Assembly (NCBI GenBank): GCA_030684835.1
Contig: JAUXWZ010000046.1
Location: 1 to 64,000, forward strand
Length of the DNA: 64,000 nucleotides
From: Beijerinckiaceae bacterium
GTDB lineage: Bacteria; Pseudomonadota; Alphaproteobacteria; Rhizobiales; Beijerinckiaceae
Reading direction: 5' to 3'
A model generated the notes under the pieces. The model was not told the origin of the DNA, did not search any database, and was given only the letters and a program-made list of their open reading frames with translations. Made by a program: the position numbers and the translations under genes. This document shows positions 35,042 to 47,705 of this stretch, piece after piece (within the stretch, counting starts at the first letter, position 1; every line of letters starts with the position of its first letter).

Positions 35042-36622
<1,581 letters not shown>

Positions 36623-36734
36623 TGATGTCCTCGGGATGGCGGCCGCGCACGGCCTGCCGGGGATTTGCCCCATTGGGGGCGGGAACGCAAATGGTTGAAG
36701 CCGCCTCCGCTCCTCCAGCTATGAAAGGAAGGCG

Positions 36735-39700
36735 CTACTCCGCCGGATTCAGGTGAGCCGCCCGGCGCTCGTCGCCTGCCTTCGCCAGCGCCGCCTTTTC
36801 GCGGTCGCGCGAGCGTTCGCGCGCCAGGAATGTGTACATTACCGGCGTGACGAACAGCGTGAACAGCGTGCCAATCGCCATGCCGAAGGCGATGACGATG
36901 CCGATGTCCATGCGGCTGCGCGCGCCCGCGCCCGACGCGATCATGAGCGGCACCATCGCCACCACCATCGCCGCCGTGGTCATCAGAATCGGCCGCAACC
37001 GCACGCCGCACGCACGTTCAATCGCCTCGCGCCGCGACATGCCCTCTTCCTGCAGCTTGTTGGCGAACTCGACCATGAGAATGCCGTGCTTCGAGATGAG
37101 GCCGATGAGCGTGACGAGACCCACCTGCGTGTAGATGTTGATCGACCCCGCGCCCATCATGCCGAGCACGTTGAGGGGCAACAACGCGCCGAAGATCGAC
37201 GTCGGCAGCGCGATGAGGATGATGAACGGATCGCGGAAACTTTCGAACTGCGCCGCAAGCACGAGATAAATCACAATGAGCGCGAAGAAGAACGTGATCG
37301 CCAGCGTATTGCCCTCCTGCACGAACTGGCGCGATTCCCCCTGAAAATCGTACGAATAGCCCGCCGGGAAGCTCGCTGCCTGATCACGCAGGAAGTCAAC
37401 AACCTCGCCCATCGTGCGCCCCGGGAACGGCGCGCCCGACAGCGTGGCGGAGCTCAATTGCTGGAAGTTCGTCAAGGCATTTGGCTGCACGCTCTGCGTC
37501 ACCGTCGCCACTGTAGAGAGCGGCACGAGTTCACCGCCCGCCGTGCGCACCTGATAGCGCGTCAGCCAATCTGACGTGTCACGGAACTCGCGCGGCGTCT
37601 GCGGCACAACCTGATAGCTGCGTCCGTAAAGATTGAAGCGGTTGACGAAATTGCCGCCAAGCAGGGTTGCGAGAGACGAGCCGACATCCTGCATCGATAT
37701 GCCGAGCCGGTTCGCCTTGTCGGCGTCAACCCTGAATTCAAACTGCGGCGTGTCAAACTTCAGATCGGTATCGGTGAAGATGAACAAGCCGCTCGCTTGC
37801 GCGGCCTTTTGAACATTCTCCAGCACCTGCGCCAATTGCTGGTAATCGCCGGTAGAACGAATAACGAACTGCACGGGCGGGCCACCGGCCGAACCCGGCA
37901 ACGCCGGTGGCGAGAACGCGAACGCAGCGCCGCCCGTAACCTCGGGGAAACGGCCTTGCAATTGCTGTTGCACCTGCTTGGTCGAGCGTTGGCGCTCGCT
38001 CCAGGGCTTCATGATGACGCCGACAAACGCCTGCCGCACGCCAGCCATCCCGTTGATGGCGAAGACATGCTCCTTCTCGGGAATTTCATCAATGATCTTG
38101 CCAACCGCGGCGGTCGTGCGTTCGAGATAATCGAGGTTGGCGTATTGCGGCGTCTTGACGATGGACAGCAAGAATCCCTGATCCTCTTCCGGCGCAAGCT
38201 CGCGCGGCGTGGACACATAAAGGACCGCCGTCAGCGCCAGAACGCCCGCAAGAACGACAACGGTCATCGCGCGGAAGTTAAGCGTCTTGTGCAAGCGCCG
38301 CTCATAGCGCAGCCGCAGCCGGTCAAACAACCTGTCCAGAAAGCTCGCAAAACGGCCCTGCCCTTTCGCGCTGTGCGGCTTGAGAAGTTTGGAGCACATC
38401 ATGGGCGTCAAGGTCAGCGCGATCACGCCCGACACGATGACCGCGCCAGCCAGCGTAAACGCGAACTCCTGAAACAGCGCGCCGGTGAGGCCGGTGACGA
38501 AGCCGATGGGCGCATAGACAGCCGCCAGCGTGATCGTCATGGCCACAACAGGCCCGGCAATTTCCCGCGCCCCGCGTAATGATGCGTCGAACGGCGTCAT
38601 GCCGTCCTCGATATGCCGATAGATATTTTCCACCACGACAATGGCGTCATCGACCACAAGGCCGATGGCCAGCACCAGCGCAAGCAGGGTGAGCAAGTTG
38701 ATGGAATAGCCCAGCGCCATCAGCATGATCATCACGCCGATCAGCGAAAGCGGAATAGTGACGACGGGGATAAGCGTCGAACGCAGATTTCCAAGGAACA
38801 GGAAGATGACCACGATGACGATGATCGCGGCTTCACCCAGCGTCTTGGCGACCTCGGAGATGGACGCCCGGATGAACACCGTTGAGTCGTAGGCGATGCT
38901 CGACTCCATGCCCGGCGGCAATTGCGAGACGATGTCCGGCATCGCCTTGCGTACGTTGTCGATCACCGTCAGCGGGTTCGCGGTCGGCGTGCCGTAGACG
39001 CCGACAAACACCGCCTTGAGTCCGTCAAACACCGAGGATGAATCCACCGTCTGCGGTCCAAGCTCTACATCGGCGACGGCCCCAAGACGGATGAGCGAGT
39101 CGCCGCGCGTCGCAACCACGAGATTGGAAAACGCTTCCGGTGTGTCGAGCGATGTCCTCGCATTGATGCTTGTTTGAACAAACTGGCCTTTCACTTGGCC
39201 CGCGGCGGAGGTGAAATTGTTGATGGTGAGCGCGTTGCGCACATCGGCAGGCGTCACGCCGCGCGCGGCCATCCGGTCGGGGTCGAGCCAAATGCGCATG
39301 GCGAAGGTCTGTCCGCCAAGAATTTGCGCGTTGCCGACGCCATCCAGCGTCTGCAAGCGCGGCTGCACCACGCGCGTGATGTAGTCGGTAATCTGCGATG
39401 CGGTGAGAACTTTGGAGCTGAACGACAGGTACATCAGCGCGAAGCCCTGCCCCGTTGTCTTCACCACGACGGGGTCATTCGCCTCGCGCGGCAATTGCTG
39501 ACGCACCTGATTGACCTTCGACAGAACGTCCGTCACCGCGCGGTCCGCGTCCGCATTCAGGCGCAGGTTGAGCGTGATCGTCGAAACGTTCTGCTGCGAG
39601 GACGACACAAGCGTGTCGATGCCCTCCGTGCTCGCGACCGCCTGTTCCAGCGGCGTCGTGATGAAGCCTTTGATCAGGTCAGCGTTCGCGCCGGGATACG

Positions 39701-39851
39701 CAGTCGTGATGGTGACGGTCGTCTGCTGGATTTCGGGATATTGCCGAACCGGCAAATTGAACGCTGCCTGCAATCCAAGGAGCAGAATAAGCAAGCTGAC
39801 AACGGTCGCCAGCACAGGCCGGCGGATGAAGAGATCGGTGAACGCGCCCAT
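36735..39851 (-). CDS. RND efflux transporter, HAE1-type inner-membrane pump
   Basis: Proton-driven multidrug exporter of 1038 residues. Start MGAFTDLFIRRPVLATV matches the family, with 12 membrane segments expected and two large periplasmic loops. The proton-relay aspartates lie in GLVVDDAIVVVEN in TM4. The adaptor gene is 3 bp upstream in the same operon. No outer-membrane TolC-like gene is in the window, so the channel must be supplied from elsewhere. Substrates are unknown. Confidence 0.93.
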   Translation of the reverse strand: MGAFTDLFIRRPVLATVVSLLILLLGLQAAFNLPVRQYPEIQQTTVTITTAYPGANADLIKGFITTPLEQAVASTEGIDTLVSSSQQNVSTITLNLRLNADADRAVTDVLSKVNQVRQQLPREANDPVVVKTTGQGFALMYLSFSSKVLTASQITDYITRVVQPRLQTLDGVGNAQILGGQTFAMRIWLDPDRMAARGVTPADVRNALTINNFTSAAGQVKGQFVQTSINARTSLDTPEAFSNLVVATRGDSLIRLGAVADVELGPQTVDSSSVFDGLKAVFVGVYGTPTANPLTVIDNVRKAMPDIVSQLPPGMESSIAYDSTVFIRASISEVAKTLGEAAIIVIVVIFLFLGNLRSTLIPVVTIPLSLIGVMIMLMALGYSINLLTLLALVLAIGLVVDDAIVVVENIYRHIEDGMTPFDASLRGAREIAGPVVAMTITLAAVYAPIGFVTGLTGALFQEFAFTLAGAVIVSGVIALTLTPMMCSKLLKPHSAKGQGRFASFLDRLFDRLRLRYERRLHKTLNFRAMTVVVLAGVLALTAVLYVSTPRELAPEEDQGFLLSIVKTPQYANLDYLERTTAAVGKIIDEIPEKEHVFAINGMAGVRQAFVGVIMKPWSERQRSTKQVQQQLQGRFPEVTGGAAFAFSPPALPGSAGGPPVQFVIRSTGDYQQLAQVLENVQKAAQASGLFIFTDTDLKFDTPQFEFRVDADKANRLGISMQDVGSSLATLLGGNFVNRFNLYGRSYQVVPQTPREFRDTSDWLTRYQVRTAGGELVPLSTVATVTQSVQPNALTNFQQLSSATLSGAPFPGRTMGEVVDFLRDQAASFPAGYSYDFQGESRQFVQEGNTLAITFFFALIVIYLVLAAQFESFRDPFIILIALPTSIFGALLPLNVLGMMGAGSINIYTQVGLVTLIGLISKHGILMVEFANKLQEEGMSRREAIERACGVRLRPILMTTAAMVVAMVPLMIASGAGARSRMDIGIVIAFGMAIGTLFTLFVTPVMYTFLARERSRDREKAALAKAGDERRAAHLNPAE

Positions 39852-39854
39852 GGT

Positions 39855-41027
39855 CTACTCCCGCGGCAGCGTGTTGGGAGCGCCCGCGAGCGCGCCCGTT
39901 CCGATCTTCACGCGCGCGCCGGGCTGCAGACGAATCTGCCCCTCGGTAACGACGCGCTCTCCCGCTTTCAGCCCTTCAGCAATCGCAACGCTCTCGCCGC
40001 GCGTCTCGCCCGTGCGCACAAAGCGGCGCTCGGCCTGCAGAACGTCGCCGCCGGCCTTTGGATCAGGCGCGACCACGTAAACTGAATCGCCATAGAGCGA
40101 GAAACTCACCGCCGTGCGGGGCACGGTCACAACACTGCGCGCGGCGCCGATGAGCACGCCCACATTGCCGAACATGCCGGGCCGCAGCTTCTGATCGGCA
40201 TTAGCAATCTCGCCGCGCACGATCACGTTGCGCGTTTCAGCGCTCACACGCGCATCAATAGAGCCGATCTTGCCGATGAAGGTCTCGCCCGGGTAAGCAT
40301 CGACTTCAACTTCGATGACCTGACCCACCTTCAGATCGCCGAGCCTCTGCTCGGGCATCGGAAAATCTATGAACATCGGATCGAGCTGTTGCAGCGTCAC
40401 AAGCGCGGTCCCCGGGGACACGAATTGCCCCACGTCCACGCGCCGCAGTCCCAGTCTCCCGCTGAAGGGCGCGACAATTCTCTTCTGCGCGATAAGTGCG
40501 CGCGTGCGGTCCACCTGCGCCGATCCCTGATCGCGCGCCGACACTGCCGCATCAAGGTTAGCCTTCGTTGTCGCGGCAGACCCGACGAGTGTGCGCTGAC
40601 GCTCGAGCGCAAGCTCAGCATTTTTCAACGTCGCTTGGTTGGCCTTCAAGTCTGCCTGCTCGACGGTGTCGTCGATCTGCACGAGGGCGCCGCCTTGCTT
40701 GACGTCCTGACCCGATTCGAAATTGATCTGCACAATGACGCCGGCCGCCTGGGGCGCCACGTCAACGCCCTGCACGGCGCGAAACGTGCCGATGGCAGGC
40801 GCGCGCGGCAGCCATTCATCCTGTTTCGCGTCGCCAACGGCCACAGTCGAAACTGGCTGCGGGGCAGCCGCAATGAATCCGCGGATCATCTCCGGCTTGT
40901 AGATAAAATGAAACCACGCCAAGCCGGCGGTAAGCCCAGCCAGAAGAATCAAGACGATCGTGAGTAAAACAGCGCGTTTCATTCCAAGCACCAGGGGTCG
41001 TGGATCGTCAGATCCGATTTCGGACAT
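39855..41027 (-). CDS. RND efflux periplasmic adaptor (membrane fusion protein)
   Basis: A 390-residue adaptor linking the pump to an outer-membrane channel. One N-terminal membrane anchor (about 18-38, VLLTIVLILLAGLTAGLAW) is followed by a lipoyl-like segment (DVAPQAAGVIVQINFESGQDV), an alpha-helical hairpin (about 110-165), and beta-barrel and membrane-proximal domains. First gene of the efflux operon. ATG at 41027 preferred over TTG at 41033; AGGT precedes it. Confidence 0.92.
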   Translation of the reverse strand: MSEIGSDDPRPLVLGMKRAVLLTIVLILLAGLTAGLAWFHFIYKPEMIRGFIAAAPQPVSTVAVGDAKQDEWLPRAPAIGTFRAVQGVDVAPQAAGVIVQINFESGQDVKQGGALVQIDDTVEQADLKANQATLKNAELALERQRTLVGSAATTKANLDAAVSARDQGSAQVDRTRALIAQKRIVAPFSGRLGLRRVDVGQFVSPGTALVTLQQLDPMFIDFPMPEQRLGDLKVGQVIEVEVDAYPGETFIGKIGSIDARVSAETRNVIVRGEIANADQKLRPGMFGNVGVLIGAARSVVTVPRTAVSFSLYGDSVYVVAPDPKAGGDVLQAERRFVRTGETRGESVAIAEGLKAGERVVTEGQIRLQPGARVKIGTGALAGAPNTLPRE

Positions 41028-41158
41028 ATTCAACTGACCTGGGAGCGGGCCACGGGGACGCTTCTGCCGAGCGACCTTCGAACTGCCAACAAAGAGCCGG
41101 TGCGGCGACCCTCGTCTTCCTCGCGGGGGCTAACTAGCACGCATTCGCATGAAAAGCG

Positions 41159-41317: not shown

Positions 41318-41461
41318 GCACATAAAACGAGCCATCAACGCTCAACATTTATTCAAACGCGACCTATGGCGCGGTTTTGATCTGGCAAGCAGTGGTATAG
41401 GCTTTGCAACCGACGGGTTGACGCTGAGCGATGCAATTTGCTTGGCCGCTTGGGTGAGGCG

Positions 41462-42889
41462 ATGGTCGAGAAGAGTTTCTGGGACGAGATGACCGGCGGG
41501 GCGGGCGACATCCGCGCCGTCTATGCACGGATTGACCAGTGGCTTCGCGACACGCCGCCAGACATCCTTGCAGCCCGCCGCAGCCAGGCCGAGCTGCTTT
41601 TCCGGCGCATCGGGATCACCTTCGCCGTGTATGGCTCCGCTGACGCCGCGGAACGCCTGATCCCCTTCGACATCATTCCCCGCGTCATTGCGCAGAAGGA
41701 ATGGCATCTGCTCGAAGAGGGCCTCATCCAGCGCGTGAAGGCGATCAACGCCTTTCTCACCGACATTTACGGCCCCCGCGAAATTCTGCGCGCCGGCATT
41801 ATTCCCGCCGACCTGGTGTTTCAGAATCCGGCGTTTCGGCCCGAAATGGCGGGCCGCCGCGCGCCGCACGACATCTGGGTGCATATCGCCGGCATCGACG
41901 TCGTACGCACGGACGAAAACGAGTTCTACGTTCTCGAAGACAATGCGCGCACGCCCTCGGGCGTGTCCTACATGCTGGAGAACCGCGATGTGATGATGCG
42001 GCTTCTGCCGGATCTCTTCGCGGCCCACCGCATCGCCCCGGTCGAAAATTACACGGACCTTCTGCTCAAATGCCTGCGCTCTGTCGCCCCGCCCACGGCC
42101 TCCGGCGAGCCCAGCGTCGCGCTGCTGACGCCGGGACAATTCAACTCGGCCTATTACGAACATTCGTTCCTGGCCGACCGGCTCGGGGTCGAGCTTGTCG
42201 AGGGCAGCGATCTTTTCGTGCGCGATGACGTGCTGTACATGCGCACGACGCAGGGGCCCAAGCGCGTCGACGTTCTCTATCGCCGCATTGACGACGATTA
42301 TCTCGATCCGCTGGTCTTCCGGCCAGACTCCGTGCTCGGCGTGCCCGGCATTCTCAACGCCTGCAACGCGGGCAATCTCACGCTCTCAAATGCCGTGGGC
42401 ACTGGCGTCGCCGACGACAAGGCGATGTACACCTACATGCCCGAGATCGTGCGCTTCTATCTTGGGCAAGAGGCAATCTTGAAAAACGCGCCCACGTGGC
42501 GCTGCCGCGACGCCGATTCTTTGAAATATGTGCTCGAGCATTTGCACGAACTTGTGGTCAAGGAAGTCAACGGCTCCGGGGGCTACGGCATGCTGGTTGG
42601 CCCTCACGCCACGAAGGAAGAGCGCGAACGCTTCCGCGAAAAACTGCTGGCAGACCCTGCTAATTACATCGCGCAACCGACCCTCTCGCTTTCCACGTGC
42701 CCGGCGTTCGTGGAAGAAGGCATCGCGCCGCGCCACGTCGACCTTCGGCCATTCGTGCTGACTGGCGCGAACGGCTCGCGCGTTGTGCCAGGCGGCCTGA
42801 CGCGCGTGGCCATGCGCAAAGGCTCGCTGGTCGTTAATTCAAGCCAGGGCGGCGGCACCAAGGACACCTGGATCATCGAAGATGCCTGA
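41462..42889 (+). CDS. Circularly permuted ATP-grasp protein (Anbu-operon type)
   Basis: A 475-residue protein of the circularly permuted ATP-grasp type 2 family, predicted to form amide or peptide bonds using ATP. Visible motifs: RRIGITFAVYG, FDIIPRVI, EFYVLEDNARTPSGVSYM, RVDVLYRRIDDDYLDPL, KEVNGSGGYGMLVGP and HVDLRPFVL. It is the first of four co-directional genes (ATP-grasp, alpha-E, transglutaminase-like, Anbu), a neighbourhood described across proteobacteria. ATG at 41462 (MVEKSFW) is chosen; the frame is open from TTG 41438. The actual substrate is not known. Confidence 0.9.
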   Translation: MVEKSFWDEMTGGAGDIRAVYARIDQWLRDTPPDILAARRSQAELLFRRIGITFAVYGSADAAERLIPFDIIPRVIAQKEWHLLEEGLIQRVKAINAFLTDIYGPREILRAGIIPADLVFQNPAFRPEMAGRRAPHDIWVHIAGIDVVRTDENEFYVLEDNARTPSGVSYMLENRDVMMRLLPDLFAAHRIAPVENYTDLLLKCLRSVAPPTASGEPSVALLTPGQFNSAYYEHSFLADRLGVELVEGSDLFVRDDVLYMRTTQGPKRVDVLYRRIDDDYLDPLVFRPDSVLGVPGILNACNAGNLTLSNAVGTGVADDKAMYTYMPEIVRFYLGQEAILKNAPTWRCRDADSLKYVLEHLHELVVKEVNGSGGYGMLVGPHATKEERERFREKLLADPANYIAQPTLSLSTCPAFVEEGIAPRHVDLRPFVLTGANGSRVVPGGLTRVAMRKGSLVVNSSQGGGTKDTWIIEDA

Positions 42890-42937
42890 CATGTCCGCCC
42901 CGCGTGCCCTCATCCCATCCAAACGCCGGAGCGCCTG

Positions 42938-43897
42938 ATGCTTTCGCGCACAGCCGACAACATTTATTGGCTTGCACGCTATGTGGAGCGCGCGGAGTTC
43001 ACGGCGCGCATTATCGACATTACCTCGCGCCTCGCCGCATTGCCCAAAGCCTACGGCGGCACCGGCGTTGAATGGGAAAGCGCGCTTCTGGCGGTTGATG
43101 CGCACGATGCGTTCAAGGAAAAGCATGACGTCGCAGATGAGCAGACTGTCCTGCGCTTCCTCGTCTTCGACCCCGACAATCCATCCTCGATCCGTTATTG
43201 CGTCGAGCGCGCCCGCACCAATGCGCGCGCGGTGCGAACTGCGCTGACATCCGACATGTGGCAGGCGATCAACTCGAGCTGGATCGAGATACGCAACATC
43301 GAGCGCGCCGTCGCGCCGTTCGAGCGAATGAGCCGCGACCGTATCGACCCCGCGCTGGACGCCGTGAAATCGATGTCGCGTGACTTCGATGGCCTTGCCT
43401 ATCGCTCCATGCTGCGCAACGACGCCTACTGGTTCAACCGGCTCGGCCTTTACATGGAGCGTTCGGACAACACCGCGCGCATCCTCGACGTCAAGTATCA
43501 TGTCCTGTTACCCGAAACGGAATCGGTGGGCGGCTCGCTCGACTATTTCCAGTGGACCTCGATCTTGCGCGCCGTGTCCGCGCTCACGGCCTATAACTGG
43601 GTTTATCGCCAAAGCATCAAGCCGTGGCTGGTCGCCGACCTGCTGATCCTGCGCAAAGAGATGCCACGCTCGCTCGTTTCCTGCTACGACAACCTCTCGC
43701 GCTTTCTTGACGACATCGCCAGAGCTTACGGCGCGCAAGGGCCCGCGCAACGCCACGCACGCGCGATGCTGCTGCGTCTGGAGAGCGCCACGATAGAAGA
43801 TCTCTTTCGCTCCGGCCTGCATGAATTCGTGACCGAGTTCATCGACGACAACAACCGCCTTGGCGTGCTGCTCGCCGAACAATACCTGCTGAACTGA
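42938..43897 (+). CDS. Alpha-E domain-containing protein
   Basis: A 319-residue, largely helical protein of the alpha-E (DUF403) family, almost always found beside the circularly permuted ATP-grasp gene. The N-terminus MLSRTADNIYWLARYVERAE is characteristic, and the motif recurs internally as WFNRLGLYMERSDNTARILD. No catalytic motif is known. It probably forms a complex with the ATP-grasp protein. It lies 48 bp after the ATP-grasp stop and 18 bp before the transglutaminase-like gene. Confidence 0.9.
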   Translation: MLSRTADNIYWLARYVERAEFTARIIDITSRLAALPKAYGGTGVEWESALLAVDAHDAFKEKHDVADEQTVLRFLVFDPDNPSSIRYCVERARTNARAVRTALTSDMWQAINSSWIEIRNIERAVAPFERMSRDRIDPALDAVKSMSRDFDGLAYRSMLRNDAYWFNRLGLYMERSDNTARILDVKYHVLLPETESVGGSLDYFQWTSILRAVSALTAYNWVYRQSIKPWLVADLLILRKEMPRSLVSCYDNLSRFLDDIARAYGAQGPAQRHARAMLLRLESATIEDLFRSGLHEFVTEFIDDNNRLGVLLAEQYLLN

Positions 43898-43915
43898 CAG
43901 CCCCTGGGGCGAACC

Positions 43916-44746
43916 ATGCGCATTCACATCCGACACGAAATCGCGCACACCTTTGAACCGCCAGTCCGGTTTTTGAACGCGACGTTGCGACTGACGCCGC
44001 GCAGCCATGAGAGCCAGCACATCGCGCGCTGGCGCGTCGAGATCGACGGCGACAGCCGGATCCGCGCGTTCGACGACGGTTTTGGCAATTGCATGCATAC
44101 GCTGAGCATGTCGGGCCAGACGGAAACGTTGCGCCTCTTTGCTGAAGGCGTTGTCGATACGTTCGACGCAGCCGGCATCGTGCGCGCGACTGTCGAACGG
44201 TTCCCGCCCGAATTGTTTTTGCGCGAGACGGCCCTCACATCGCCCGATGATCGCCAGCGCGCGCTGGCGGCGAAGATTGAAGGCGAAAACAGAATCGAGC
44301 GGCTGCATGCGCTGCTTCTGCTTCTGTCGGACGATGAGAAGCCGGAAGAGCCGGCACAGGAGCAGACACAGGCAAAAGAGCCGGCTGCGCAGAAGCAATC
44401 ACAAGAGGTTCCGGCGCCAAAAGCGCCGACTAAGGAAGACAAGAACAAGGTCAAGGCGCTGGTTCACGACTTCATCGTCTGCGCGCGTCTTGTCGGCGCC
44501 CCGGCGCGGTTTGTCAGCGGCTATCACCTTCACCCCAAGACGCAGGCTGGCGGTTTTCATTTCTGGGCGGAGGCGCATGTAGAAGGCGTCGGCTGGATCG
44601 GTTTTGATCCGGCGAACGCGATCTGTCCGCACGAGAGCCACGTACGTATGGCGGTGGGCCTCGACGCGCTGGACGCGACGTGCATGCGCATAGCGCCCTC
44701 GCCCCAAACCGAAATAGAAACGGTGGATGTGCGCCGCCAGAGTTGA
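43916..44746 (+). CDS. Transglutaminase-like protein lacking the catalytic cysteine
   Basis: A 276-residue member of the bacterial transglutaminase-like family found in Anbu operons. The N-terminal beta-rich domain (1-~105) is normal (RIHIRHEIAHTFEPP, FPPELFLRETAL). The core segment aligns by HxFI...AR...PARFVSGY, but the position of the nucleophilic Cys is V179 (KVKALVHDF). His215 (FHFWAEAH) and Asp231 (GFDPANAI) remain. Residues about 140-180 are a Q/E/K/P-rich linker in place of the expected helix. It therefore looks like a pseudoenzyme. It is 51 bp upstream of anbu. Confidence 0.85.
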   Translation: MRIHIRHEIAHTFEPPVRFLNATLRLTPRSHESQHIARWRVEIDGDSRIRAFDDGFGNCMHTLSMSGQTETLRLFAEGVVDTFDAAGIVRATVERFPPELFLRETALTSPDDRQRALAAKIEGENRIERLHALLLLLSDDEKPEEPAQEQTQAKEPAAQKQSQEVPAPKAPTKEDKNKVKALVHDFIVCARLVGAPARFVSGYHLHPKTQAGGFHFWAEAHVEGVGWIGFDPANAICPHESHVRMAVGLDALDATCMRIAPSPQTEIETVDVRRQS

Positions 44747-44797
44747 GAAGCGCGTCGCGCACAGATAGAAGAACCGCTTAACGGGGAATCTGGCGTT

Positions 44798-45556
44798 ATG
44801 ACGTATTGTTGTGGACTTCTGGTGCGCGAAGGCATGGTGATGATCGCCGACACGCGCACCAATGCCGGCCTCGACAACATATCCACGTTTCGCAAACTCC
44901 ATCTGTTCCACACGCCGGGCGAGCGCGTGATGATGATCGCCACTGCTGGCAATCTCTCGATCTCCCAGAACGTCATCAATTATGTGACCGAAGGACTCGA
45001 AAACCCGGAAACCGGCGAGATCGAACGTCTGATGCAGGCGCCAACCATGTTTGCGGCGGCCGAGCTGATCGGCCGCGCCGTGCGCAAAGTGCGAGCCGTG
45101 CAGGGCGAGGCGCTCGAAGAGGCCAAGATCAACTTTGAAGTCACCATGCTCTTTGGCGGCCAGGTCAAGGGCGGCCGCATGCGGCTTTTCATGATCTATT
45201 CGGCTGGCAATTTCATCGAGGCCACGCGCGACACGCCCTACCTGCAAATCGGCGAACACAAATATGGCAAGCCGGTGCTCGATCGCGCCGTCGAATACGA
45301 CACCCGTGTGGATGACGCGCTGAAACTGGCGCTCATCTCAATGGACTCCACGATGCGCTCGAATCTCGGCGTCGGCCTGCCCATCGACATCGCCGTCCTG
45401 CCCCGCGACACGATGGTGCTGGAAGTCGATCACCGCATCGACAATGTCGATCCGTATTACCACGACCTGCGCGACCGCTGGTCAGTCGCCCTGCGCGCCG
45501 CGCACATCGCCATTCCTCGCCCCCCGTATCTGAAGAACCTGCCCAAAACGAGCTGA
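44798..45556 (+). CDS. Anbu: proteasome-like (ancestral beta subunit) peptidase
   Basis: A 252-residue Ntn-hydrolase related to proteasome beta subunits and HslV. Removal of Met exposes Thr as N-terminal nucleophile (MTYCCGLLV). Asp18 in IADTRTNAG and Lys33 in STFRKLH complete the catalytic set. RVMMIATAGNLS and YSAGNFIEATRDTPYLQIGEHKYGK (shown in parts) are typical. Anbu forms open helical or ring assemblies without a known ATPase partner. It closes the ATP-grasp/alpha-E/transglutaminase operon. A 15-bp in-frame duplication repeats its last codons and stop. Confidence 0.93.
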   Translation: MTYCCGLLVREGMVMIADTRTNAGLDNISTFRKLHLFHTPGERVMMIATAGNLSISQNVINYVTEGLENPETGEIERLMQAPTMFAAAELIGRAVRKVRAVQGEALEEAKINFEVTMLFGGQVKGGRMRLFMIYSAGNFIEATRDTPYLQIGEHKYGKPVLDRAVEYDTRVDDALKLALISMDSTMRSNLGVGLPIDIAVLPRDTMVLEVDHRIDNVDPYYHDLRDRWSVALRAAHIAIPRPPYLKNLPKTS

Positions 45557-45571: not shown

Positions 45572-45654
45572 AGCCAGGCGGCGCACGGGCCGGCGGATCG
45601 CGACATGCTCTCCCCTCCCTTGCCGCCTCTGCGCCTTTCGGCTAACGTCCTCGA

Positions 45655-45742
45655 CATCGCCAGGGGTGCCGACCGGAAATCCGGCGGCTGAGATCACACC
45701 CTTCGAACCTGATCTGGTTGACGCCAGCGTAGGGAGGGCGCG
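45655..45742 (+). ncRNA. TPP riboswitch (THI element)
   Basis: Thiamine pyrophosphate-sensing leader of thiC. The conserved elements are in order: GGGGTGCC (45663-45670), the P3 stem GACCGG-AAAT-CCGGC, CTGAGATCACACCC (45688-45701), GAACCTGATCTGG and GCCAGCGTAGGGA ending near 45735. CGCC (45658-45661) pairs with GGCG (45737-45740) in P1. Binding of TPP lowers thiC expression in this class. Confidence 0.96.
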
Positions 45743-45770
45743 AAGGCGGGGGCAATCCGTCTTCCCGAAA

Positions 45771-45806: not shown

Positions 45807-47705
<1,899 letters not shown>

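Follow-up and report, generated by a model that had tools for sequence, protein, structure and literature searches.

Recurrent loss of the catalytic cysteine from the transglutaminase-like protein of the Anbu operon, and its likely tie to a second locus

The window analysed here is a stretch of 64,000 nucleotides from a Beijerinckiaceae bacterium (GenBank assembly GCA_030684835.1, contig JAUXWZ010000046.1, positions 1 to 64,000 of the forward strand). At positions 41462 to 45556 it carries the published Anbu operon, with genes for an ATP-grasp ligase, an Alpha-E protein, a transglutaminase-like protein (TG) and the proteasome-like peptidase Anbu. The TG of this operon is, judging from its alignment, a pseudoenzyme that has lost the catalytic Cys, and the same loss has recurred in the family, where it is likely, though not proven, to be tied to a second locus (locus B), raw counts being strong and independent pairs weak. 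The operon itself was already known; in the open-access literature surveyed we met no account of its TG turning repeatedly into a pseudoenzyme in connection with locus B. We propose a nitrogen-responsive Anbu operon with ATP-grasp and Alpha-E as its core and a non-catalytic TG, for which locus B would supply the TG step in trans, a mechanism that in our judgement could equally well hold or fail.

The operon TG has lost its catalytic cysteine

The operon and the elements of its TG are arranged as follows.

41462-42889, + strand: circularly permuted ATP-grasp ligase (CP_ATPgrasp_1/2), from Pfam, conserved residues and its relation to 3n6x
42938-43897, + strand: Alpha-E protein (PF04168), from Pfam
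43916-44746, + strand: TG, a Cys-less pseudoenzyme as judged from Pfam and alignment
44327-44449, + strand: segment of low complexity inside the TG, rich in Glu, Gln, Lys, Pro and Ala, from alignment
44558-44560 and 44606-44608, + strand: His215 and Asp231 in the TG triad columns, with Val179 at the Cys site, from alignment
44798-45556, + strand: Anbu, with Thr1, Asp17 and Lys32 (numbering after Met removal), from Pfam and PDB relatives

When the window TG is aligned with its counterpart at locus B (motif GVCQDFAH) in this genome, Val179 falls in the column of the catalytic Cys; His215 and Asp231 are kept. The low-complexity insert precedes Val179 and replaces the loop ahead of the TG active-site helix, and the Transglut_core profile aligns to the protein over its second half only (profile positions 56-108 of 108). 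Because the Cys column holds Val, no ordinary Cys-based catalysis is expected of this protein. It would accordingly not count among the working bond-forming or bond-breaking enzymes of the locus, a correction in detail to a preliminary description.

Recurrent loss across the family

The state of the operon TG was scored in 162 of the 173 genomes with an Alpha-E match, comprising the genomes of the genus and a sample of the family; in all counts, "family" stands for family f1, to which the window genome belongs. The remaining 11 genomes (G011, G296, G302, G315, G347, G350, G351, G365, G370, G374 and G381) were left unscored because no operon-type Alpha-E was listed, the place was not fetched or a contig end intervened. 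Among the scored genomes, the Cys is kept in 65, replaced in 66 and absent with the whole gene in 29, while the TG is truncated in 2 (those of G010 and G277 end before the Cys column and were scored "?"). The Cys-less share of the scored family operon TGs is 66/131. Three of the TG deletions (G299, G328, G331) were called on coordinates alone, and G293 was also counted as a deletion, since its sole nearby TG sits behind Anbu. In its genus, g196, a locus-B-like gene (G253, L356) or a TG (G293, L337) lies close behind Anbu, and the operon TG is gone from its usual place.

The Cys has been replaced by Ala (41 cases), Pro (7), Ser (7), Gly (6), Val (3), Arg (1) or Thr (1). An artefact of assembly or frameshifting appears unlikely, as genomes assembled into no more than three contigs (G268, G283, G310, G332, G335) also show the loss, with differing residues. 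Cultured strains with a Cys-less TG include Alsobacter soli SH9 (G258), in which locus B is present, and Methylobacterium sp. WSM2598 (L231). Beyond the family, the Cys is kept in 46 of 52 TG rows. Two of the six rows without it belong to one genome (G046), and one (G057) is misaligned; read by eye, the TG of G057 has lost both Cys and His in the presence of locus B, and it was excluded from the counts. Among titles and the opening parts of abstracts in the open-access literature we found no report of Cys loss in an Anbu-operon TG, an earlier mention being possible.

The chief rival to a retained accessory protein is that a redundant gene is slowly decaying: any second TG would relax selection on the operon TG, which would be heading for loss, and the Cys-less protein would be idle. 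Such a course is in line with the gene having gone from 29/162 genomes and with the low-complexity insert at the active site of the window TG. It is also in line with a ratio of nonsynonymous to synonymous substitution rates (dN/dS) of the Cys-less TG above that of the neighbouring Alpha-E in 14/14 pairs of relatives; this excess, and the additional loss of His in 4 of the 66 Cys-less TGs, count against our mechanism. In the single Cys-intact pair tested, the TG value likewise exceeds that of Alpha-E (0.14 versus 0.09). Decay is opposed by the open frames of all 66 Cys-less TGs, by their conservation of Asp (66/66) and His (62/66; the Cys-intact TGs have both residues in 65/65), and by dN/dS values of 0.08-0.37 in the 14 pairs, from which we conclude that the Cys-less TG is held by purifying selection. 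We consider plain decay unlikely, if a serious competitor.

Association of Cys loss with locus B

Locus B consists of a TG preceded by a fusion of ATP-grasp and Alpha-E, and its copy in the window's own genome is L157. Its ATP-grasp is degenerate as far as its residues tell: E159, N161 and D427 are replaced in 21/21 and K367 in 20/21 (it is kept in G335), and the glycine loop is largely lost. In the locus-B TG, sought in 41 genomes, the Cys-His-Asp triad is intact in 40/40 found, and 20 of these 40 occur in genomes with a Cys-less operon TG. In the family, locus B was called at a best E value of at most 1e-150, partial matches in G253 and G293 being taken as present; the genus was scored separately. 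The window genome also has a third, large TG (L087, contig C194) with an open frame of 1126 aa and an apparently intact Cys motif, GSCRDSAW; in several relatives it is located some 6 kb away from the TG of locus B.

In family genomes with locus B, the operon TG has its Cys in 20, is Cys-less in 63, absent in 26 and truncated in 1, compared with 45, 3, 3 and 1 where locus B is absent. The three Cys-less TGs found without locus B all belong to genus g204, and locus B is present in the sampled sisters of that genus, G332 and G378. At the level of genera, Cys-less TGs were sampled in 0/13 without locus B versus 18/29 with it, and the comparison of 30 genomes outside the family gave 4/8 with locus B versus 0/22 without. 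The corresponding raw Fisher p values, which ignore descent, are about 8e-16 within the family and 0.003 outside.

Descent was taken into account in several ways. The minimum number of changes for Cys loss is at least 14 on the family tree and 18 with the outside genomes added; these two counts and the independent pairs below were obtained with one genome (G009) in the wrong TG state. When loss is read as irreversible, the count becomes 26, and every one of these losses falls in a clade with some carrier of locus B. A model with two loss rates depending on locus B outperforms a single rate (likelihood ratio 62.6, p 2.5e-15), a kind of model that can overstate association. The long-branch tip G029 was pruned for the irreversible-loss and rate analyses; in the tree with outside genomes the midpoint root set it apart from all other tips.

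Other results weaken the association. The strict independent-pairs comparison yields a median p of about 0.06 for Cys loss with locus B (0.03 when TG deletions are added); among the 13 supported pairs, locus B differs in the same direction in about 5, in the opposite direction in about 0 and not at all in about 8. The FastTree tree was made from the operon's own ATP-grasp, Alpha-E and Anbu, the Cys is kept in the 20 genomes mentioned above that carry locus B, and the TG is absent in the presence of no locus B in G006, G328 and G389 (G006 being 82% and G389 85% complete).

A lineage effect, in which locus B and Cys loss would be functionally unlinked and common in the same clades through descent, draws on that independent-pairs result (median p 0.0625) and on the clustering of both traits by genus. 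We regard it as rather improbable: the confinement of all 26 irreversible losses to clades with locus B, the contrast between genera and the recurrence of the pattern outside the family all speak against it.

A constant core with dispensable partners

The constant part of the operon is the pair of ATP-grasp and Alpha-E, and TG and Anbu have each been lost in many relatives. Anbu directly follows Alpha-E in G013, thiC follows Alpha-E in G018 and G031, which have neither TG nor Anbu at this place, and G008 retains the TG in the absence of Anbu. An Anbu gene is found in the genomes of 63/65 Cys-intact, 41/66 Cys-less and 12/29 TG-less cases; it lies apart from the operon, elsewhere in the genome, in G009 (L131), G283, G288, G324 and G390. 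Two null results tell against locus B making Anbu optional: with independent pairs, neither TG loss versus Anbu (median p 0.375) nor Anbu presence versus locus B (median p 1) is significant, so that this part of our proposal rests on the raw counts.

The ATP-grasp and Anbu of the operon look intact at their active sites. In the operon ATP-grasp, E159, N161, K367 and D427 together with the glycine loop are present in 129/129, the window included. Thr1, Asp17 and Lys32 are found in 125/125 aligned Anbus, taken from the genomes with a TG state and including the window. They match the published catalytic triad Thr1, Asp17 and Lys32/33 (PMC6376114). Anbu as the failing part of the operon was rejected on the grounds of these intact active-site residues.

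Two further readings fare poorly. The Cys-less TGs might be enzymes with another nucleophile, given that Ser or Thr stands at the Cys site in 8/66 and a Cys one residue off in 6/66; we consider this most improbable and reject it for most, as 53/66 have neither, the window TG among them, with Val at the site and its nearest following Cys ten residues past it, a residue also present in Cys-intact TGs. Nor do we give much credit to a reading along the lines of the preliminary description, in which four active enzymes act jointly in peptide synthesis, tagging or proofreading; the gene content and order are compatible with it, and a suggestion of peptide synthesis or tagging is cited in PMC5666114 and PMC6376114, whereas the TG step is already weakened in the window by the missing Cys. 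The separate losses of TG and Anbu, with ATP-grasp and Alpha-E staying in place, also speak against a single pathway that needs every step.

Gene identities, gene order and genomic context

The four open reading frames (ORFs) are co-directional on the + strand with intergenic gaps of 48, 18 and 51 bases, in agreement with the preliminary description. The first ORF is also open from an alternative TTG start at 41438, and the ATG at 41462 is directly preceded by GGTGAGG. The family identities, originally assigned from motifs, were matched by Pfam for all four genes: CP_ATPgrasp_2 for the first (E 2.2e-166), Alpha-E for the second (E 4.7e-92), Bact_transglu_N (E 3.2e-17) and Transglut_core (E 1.7e-9) for the third and Proteasome for the fourth (E 2.4e-8). 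Solved relatives in the PDB support the first and the last. These are 3n6x, annotated as a putative glutathionylspermidine synthase, for the ATP-grasp, and five Anbu sequences including 5loy (E 2.2e-81), 5nyj (E 2.7e-75), 5nyw and 5lox for Anbu. Sequence searches of the PDB gave no solved relative for Alpha-E up to E 1 and none for the TG up to E 0.1.

Of the 80 named loci whose Anbu is closest to that of the window, 56 have all four genes on the same strand. Conservation of gene order, proposed earlier as a check on the locus, is thereby borne out, and keeping the four-gene order in 56/80 places the arrangement far from chance. In 5/80 the Alpha-E, TG and Anbu genes were seen and the ATP-grasp was not; 17/80 have Anbu alone in the fetched stretch, some of them clipped by contig ends, and in 2/80 the other observed genes lie on the strand opposite to Anbu. 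The closest named relatives of the window Anbu are metagenome-assembled genomes of Hyphomicrobiales/Rhizobiales, one of them labelled Beijerinckiaceae; the window genome itself is an assembly of 4.93 Mb in 208 contigs.

Two features flank the operon.

41393-41408, + strand: site resembling a sigma-54 (-24/-12) type promoter, TGGTATAGGCTTTGCA, with 2 mismatches to the consensus
45652-45753, + strand: thiamine pyrophosphate (TPP) riboswitch upstream of the thiC ORF at 45807-47705, outside the operon and marking its downstream boundary

The gene after the operon is one that we take to be thiC from its sequence, and thiC also stands 3' of the operon in L129, L138 and L151. On the 5' side, positions 35042-41033 on the - strand presumably encode a peptide chain release factor 3-like protein, a resistance-nodulation-division (RND) pump and its membrane-fusion partner.

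Promoter and nitrogen regulation

The promoter scan used the sigma-54 consensus TGGCACRN4TTGCW. Sites with at most 2 mismatches were found in 56 of the 84 family operons having enough upstream sequence, against 1.8/84 expected from single-base shuffles and 2.2/84 from control stretches of the same loci. In the window, a site of this kind lies 5' of the first gene, with none comparable 5' of the other three (4, 4 and 5 mismatches). The signal is weaker 5' of the large TG of locus B, where 6/25 scored loci stay within the limit of 2 mismatches, compared with 0.2 expected; 5 of 30 loci, which had no motif, were dropped from that scan. The operon promoter is probably of the sigma-54/NtrC type, and the source organism would use sigma-54 for this operon.

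Published data give good support for nitrogen control and mixed support for sigma-54. In Burkholderia cenocepacia, the cluster I35_5080-5083 (ATP-grasp DUF404/407, DUF403, TG and large TG) is described as being targeted by both sigma-54 and NtrC, with expression 6- to 9-fold down in an ntrC mutant (PMC5491218). In Pseudomonas putida, PP_2686-2688 show higher expression under nitrogen limitation and are termed likely NtrB/NtrC targets (PMC7801951), the fragment upstream of PP_2688 (ATP-grasp) responds 3.7-fold to nitrogen limitation, and the transcript of PP_2685 (Anbu) is higher on nitrate than on ammonium (PMC8050072). A survey of the sigma-54 regulon lists the proteasome-type protease COG3484 (PMC12316311), and expression was unchanged under several other conditions according to PMC5666114.

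Part of the P. putida data is unfavourable to our reading. The rise of PP_2686-2688 persists in an rpoN mutant at 14- to 20-fold, as in the wild type, in which PP_2685 hardly changes (PMC7801951), and the fragment upstream of PP_2685 behaves as a separate, constitutive promoter (PMC8050072). The rpoN-mutant and fragment results do not fit a strictly sigma-54-dependent operon with one promoter in that species, where the Anbu operon may not be one transcript. The earlier claim of a single operon is favoured by the single sigma-54-like site 5' of the first gene in the window and opposed by the separate promoter of the P. putida Anbu.

Comparison with known systems

The order of ATP-grasp, Alpha-E, TG and Anbu is that of the operon credited to Iyer et al. 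2009 by Fuchs 2017 (PMC5666114) and Piasecka 2018 (PMC6376114), so that the preliminary description was right to call this a known locus of known gene order and unsettled function. The window shares with it the four genes and the intact Anbu catalytic and ATP-grasp residues, and differs from it in the Cys-less TG, in the frequent loss of TG and Anbu in the family and in the tie to locus B. Proteins of the same families and a response to nitrogen are found in B. cenocepacia I35_5080-5083 (PMC5491218) and in P. putida PP_2685-2688 (PMC7801951, PMC8050072), and the window has a sigma-54-like site. The B. cenocepacia cluster differs in that a large TG is named and Anbu is not in the text consulted (PMC5491218), the P. 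putida genes in their rpoN-independent rise (PMC7801951). In RloABC of Pseudomonas aeruginosa, too, a single operon encodes an ATP-grasp, a peptidase and a transglutaminase domain that is inactive; its TG is membrane-anchored and its aspartic peptidase secreted, and neither Alpha-E nor Anbu is named in the available text (PMC12239564).

Compared with the window operon (operon A), locus B has the same domain families in a reciprocal state: operon A combines an apparently intact ligase with a dead TG, whereas locus B combines a degenerate ligase with an intact TG. The Pfam text for PF04168 mentions active and inactive circularly permuted ATP-grasps.

Proposed mechanism and its meaning

In the mechanism that we favour, the ATP-grasp ligase and Alpha-E would form an amide bond on a substrate, and this amide would be a target for cleavage or transfer by TG and Anbu. 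The operon TG, no longer catalytic, would persist in folded form as an accessory or binding component, and the small locus-B TG would take over the TG reaction in trans, cleaving the amide of the ligase product or transferring it. Anbu would be an intact N-terminal nucleophile (Ntn) hydrolase working on the same product pool, and may be dispensable once locus B is present. As a lead only, we note that this set of glutathionylspermidine (Gsp)-type ATP-grasp and papain-like amidases resembles glutathionylspermidine synthetase/amidase. An ATP-grasp of this type releases phosphate from ATP (PMC6376114). Against the mechanism, pull-downs of the operon proteins of Yersinia are reported to have given no specific complex (PMC6376114).

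A bolder form of supply in trans would involve direct contact between the products of operon A and locus B. The two loci might then be halves of one split machine, with the intact ATP-grasp in A, the intact small TG in B in many lineages, the dead partners kept as structural or substrate-binding subunits, both loci needed and Anbu optional in the presence of B. We put this form forward tentatively.

The natural losses suggest that the indispensable part of the operon is the pair of ATP-grasp and Alpha-E, and that TG activity and Anbu are dispensable. In species carrying locus B, co-expression of the four operon proteins alone, as in Yersinia (PMC6376114), could miss a component. The losses point to locus B as a partner of the operon, and the function of the Anbu operon becomes testable by simple genetics.

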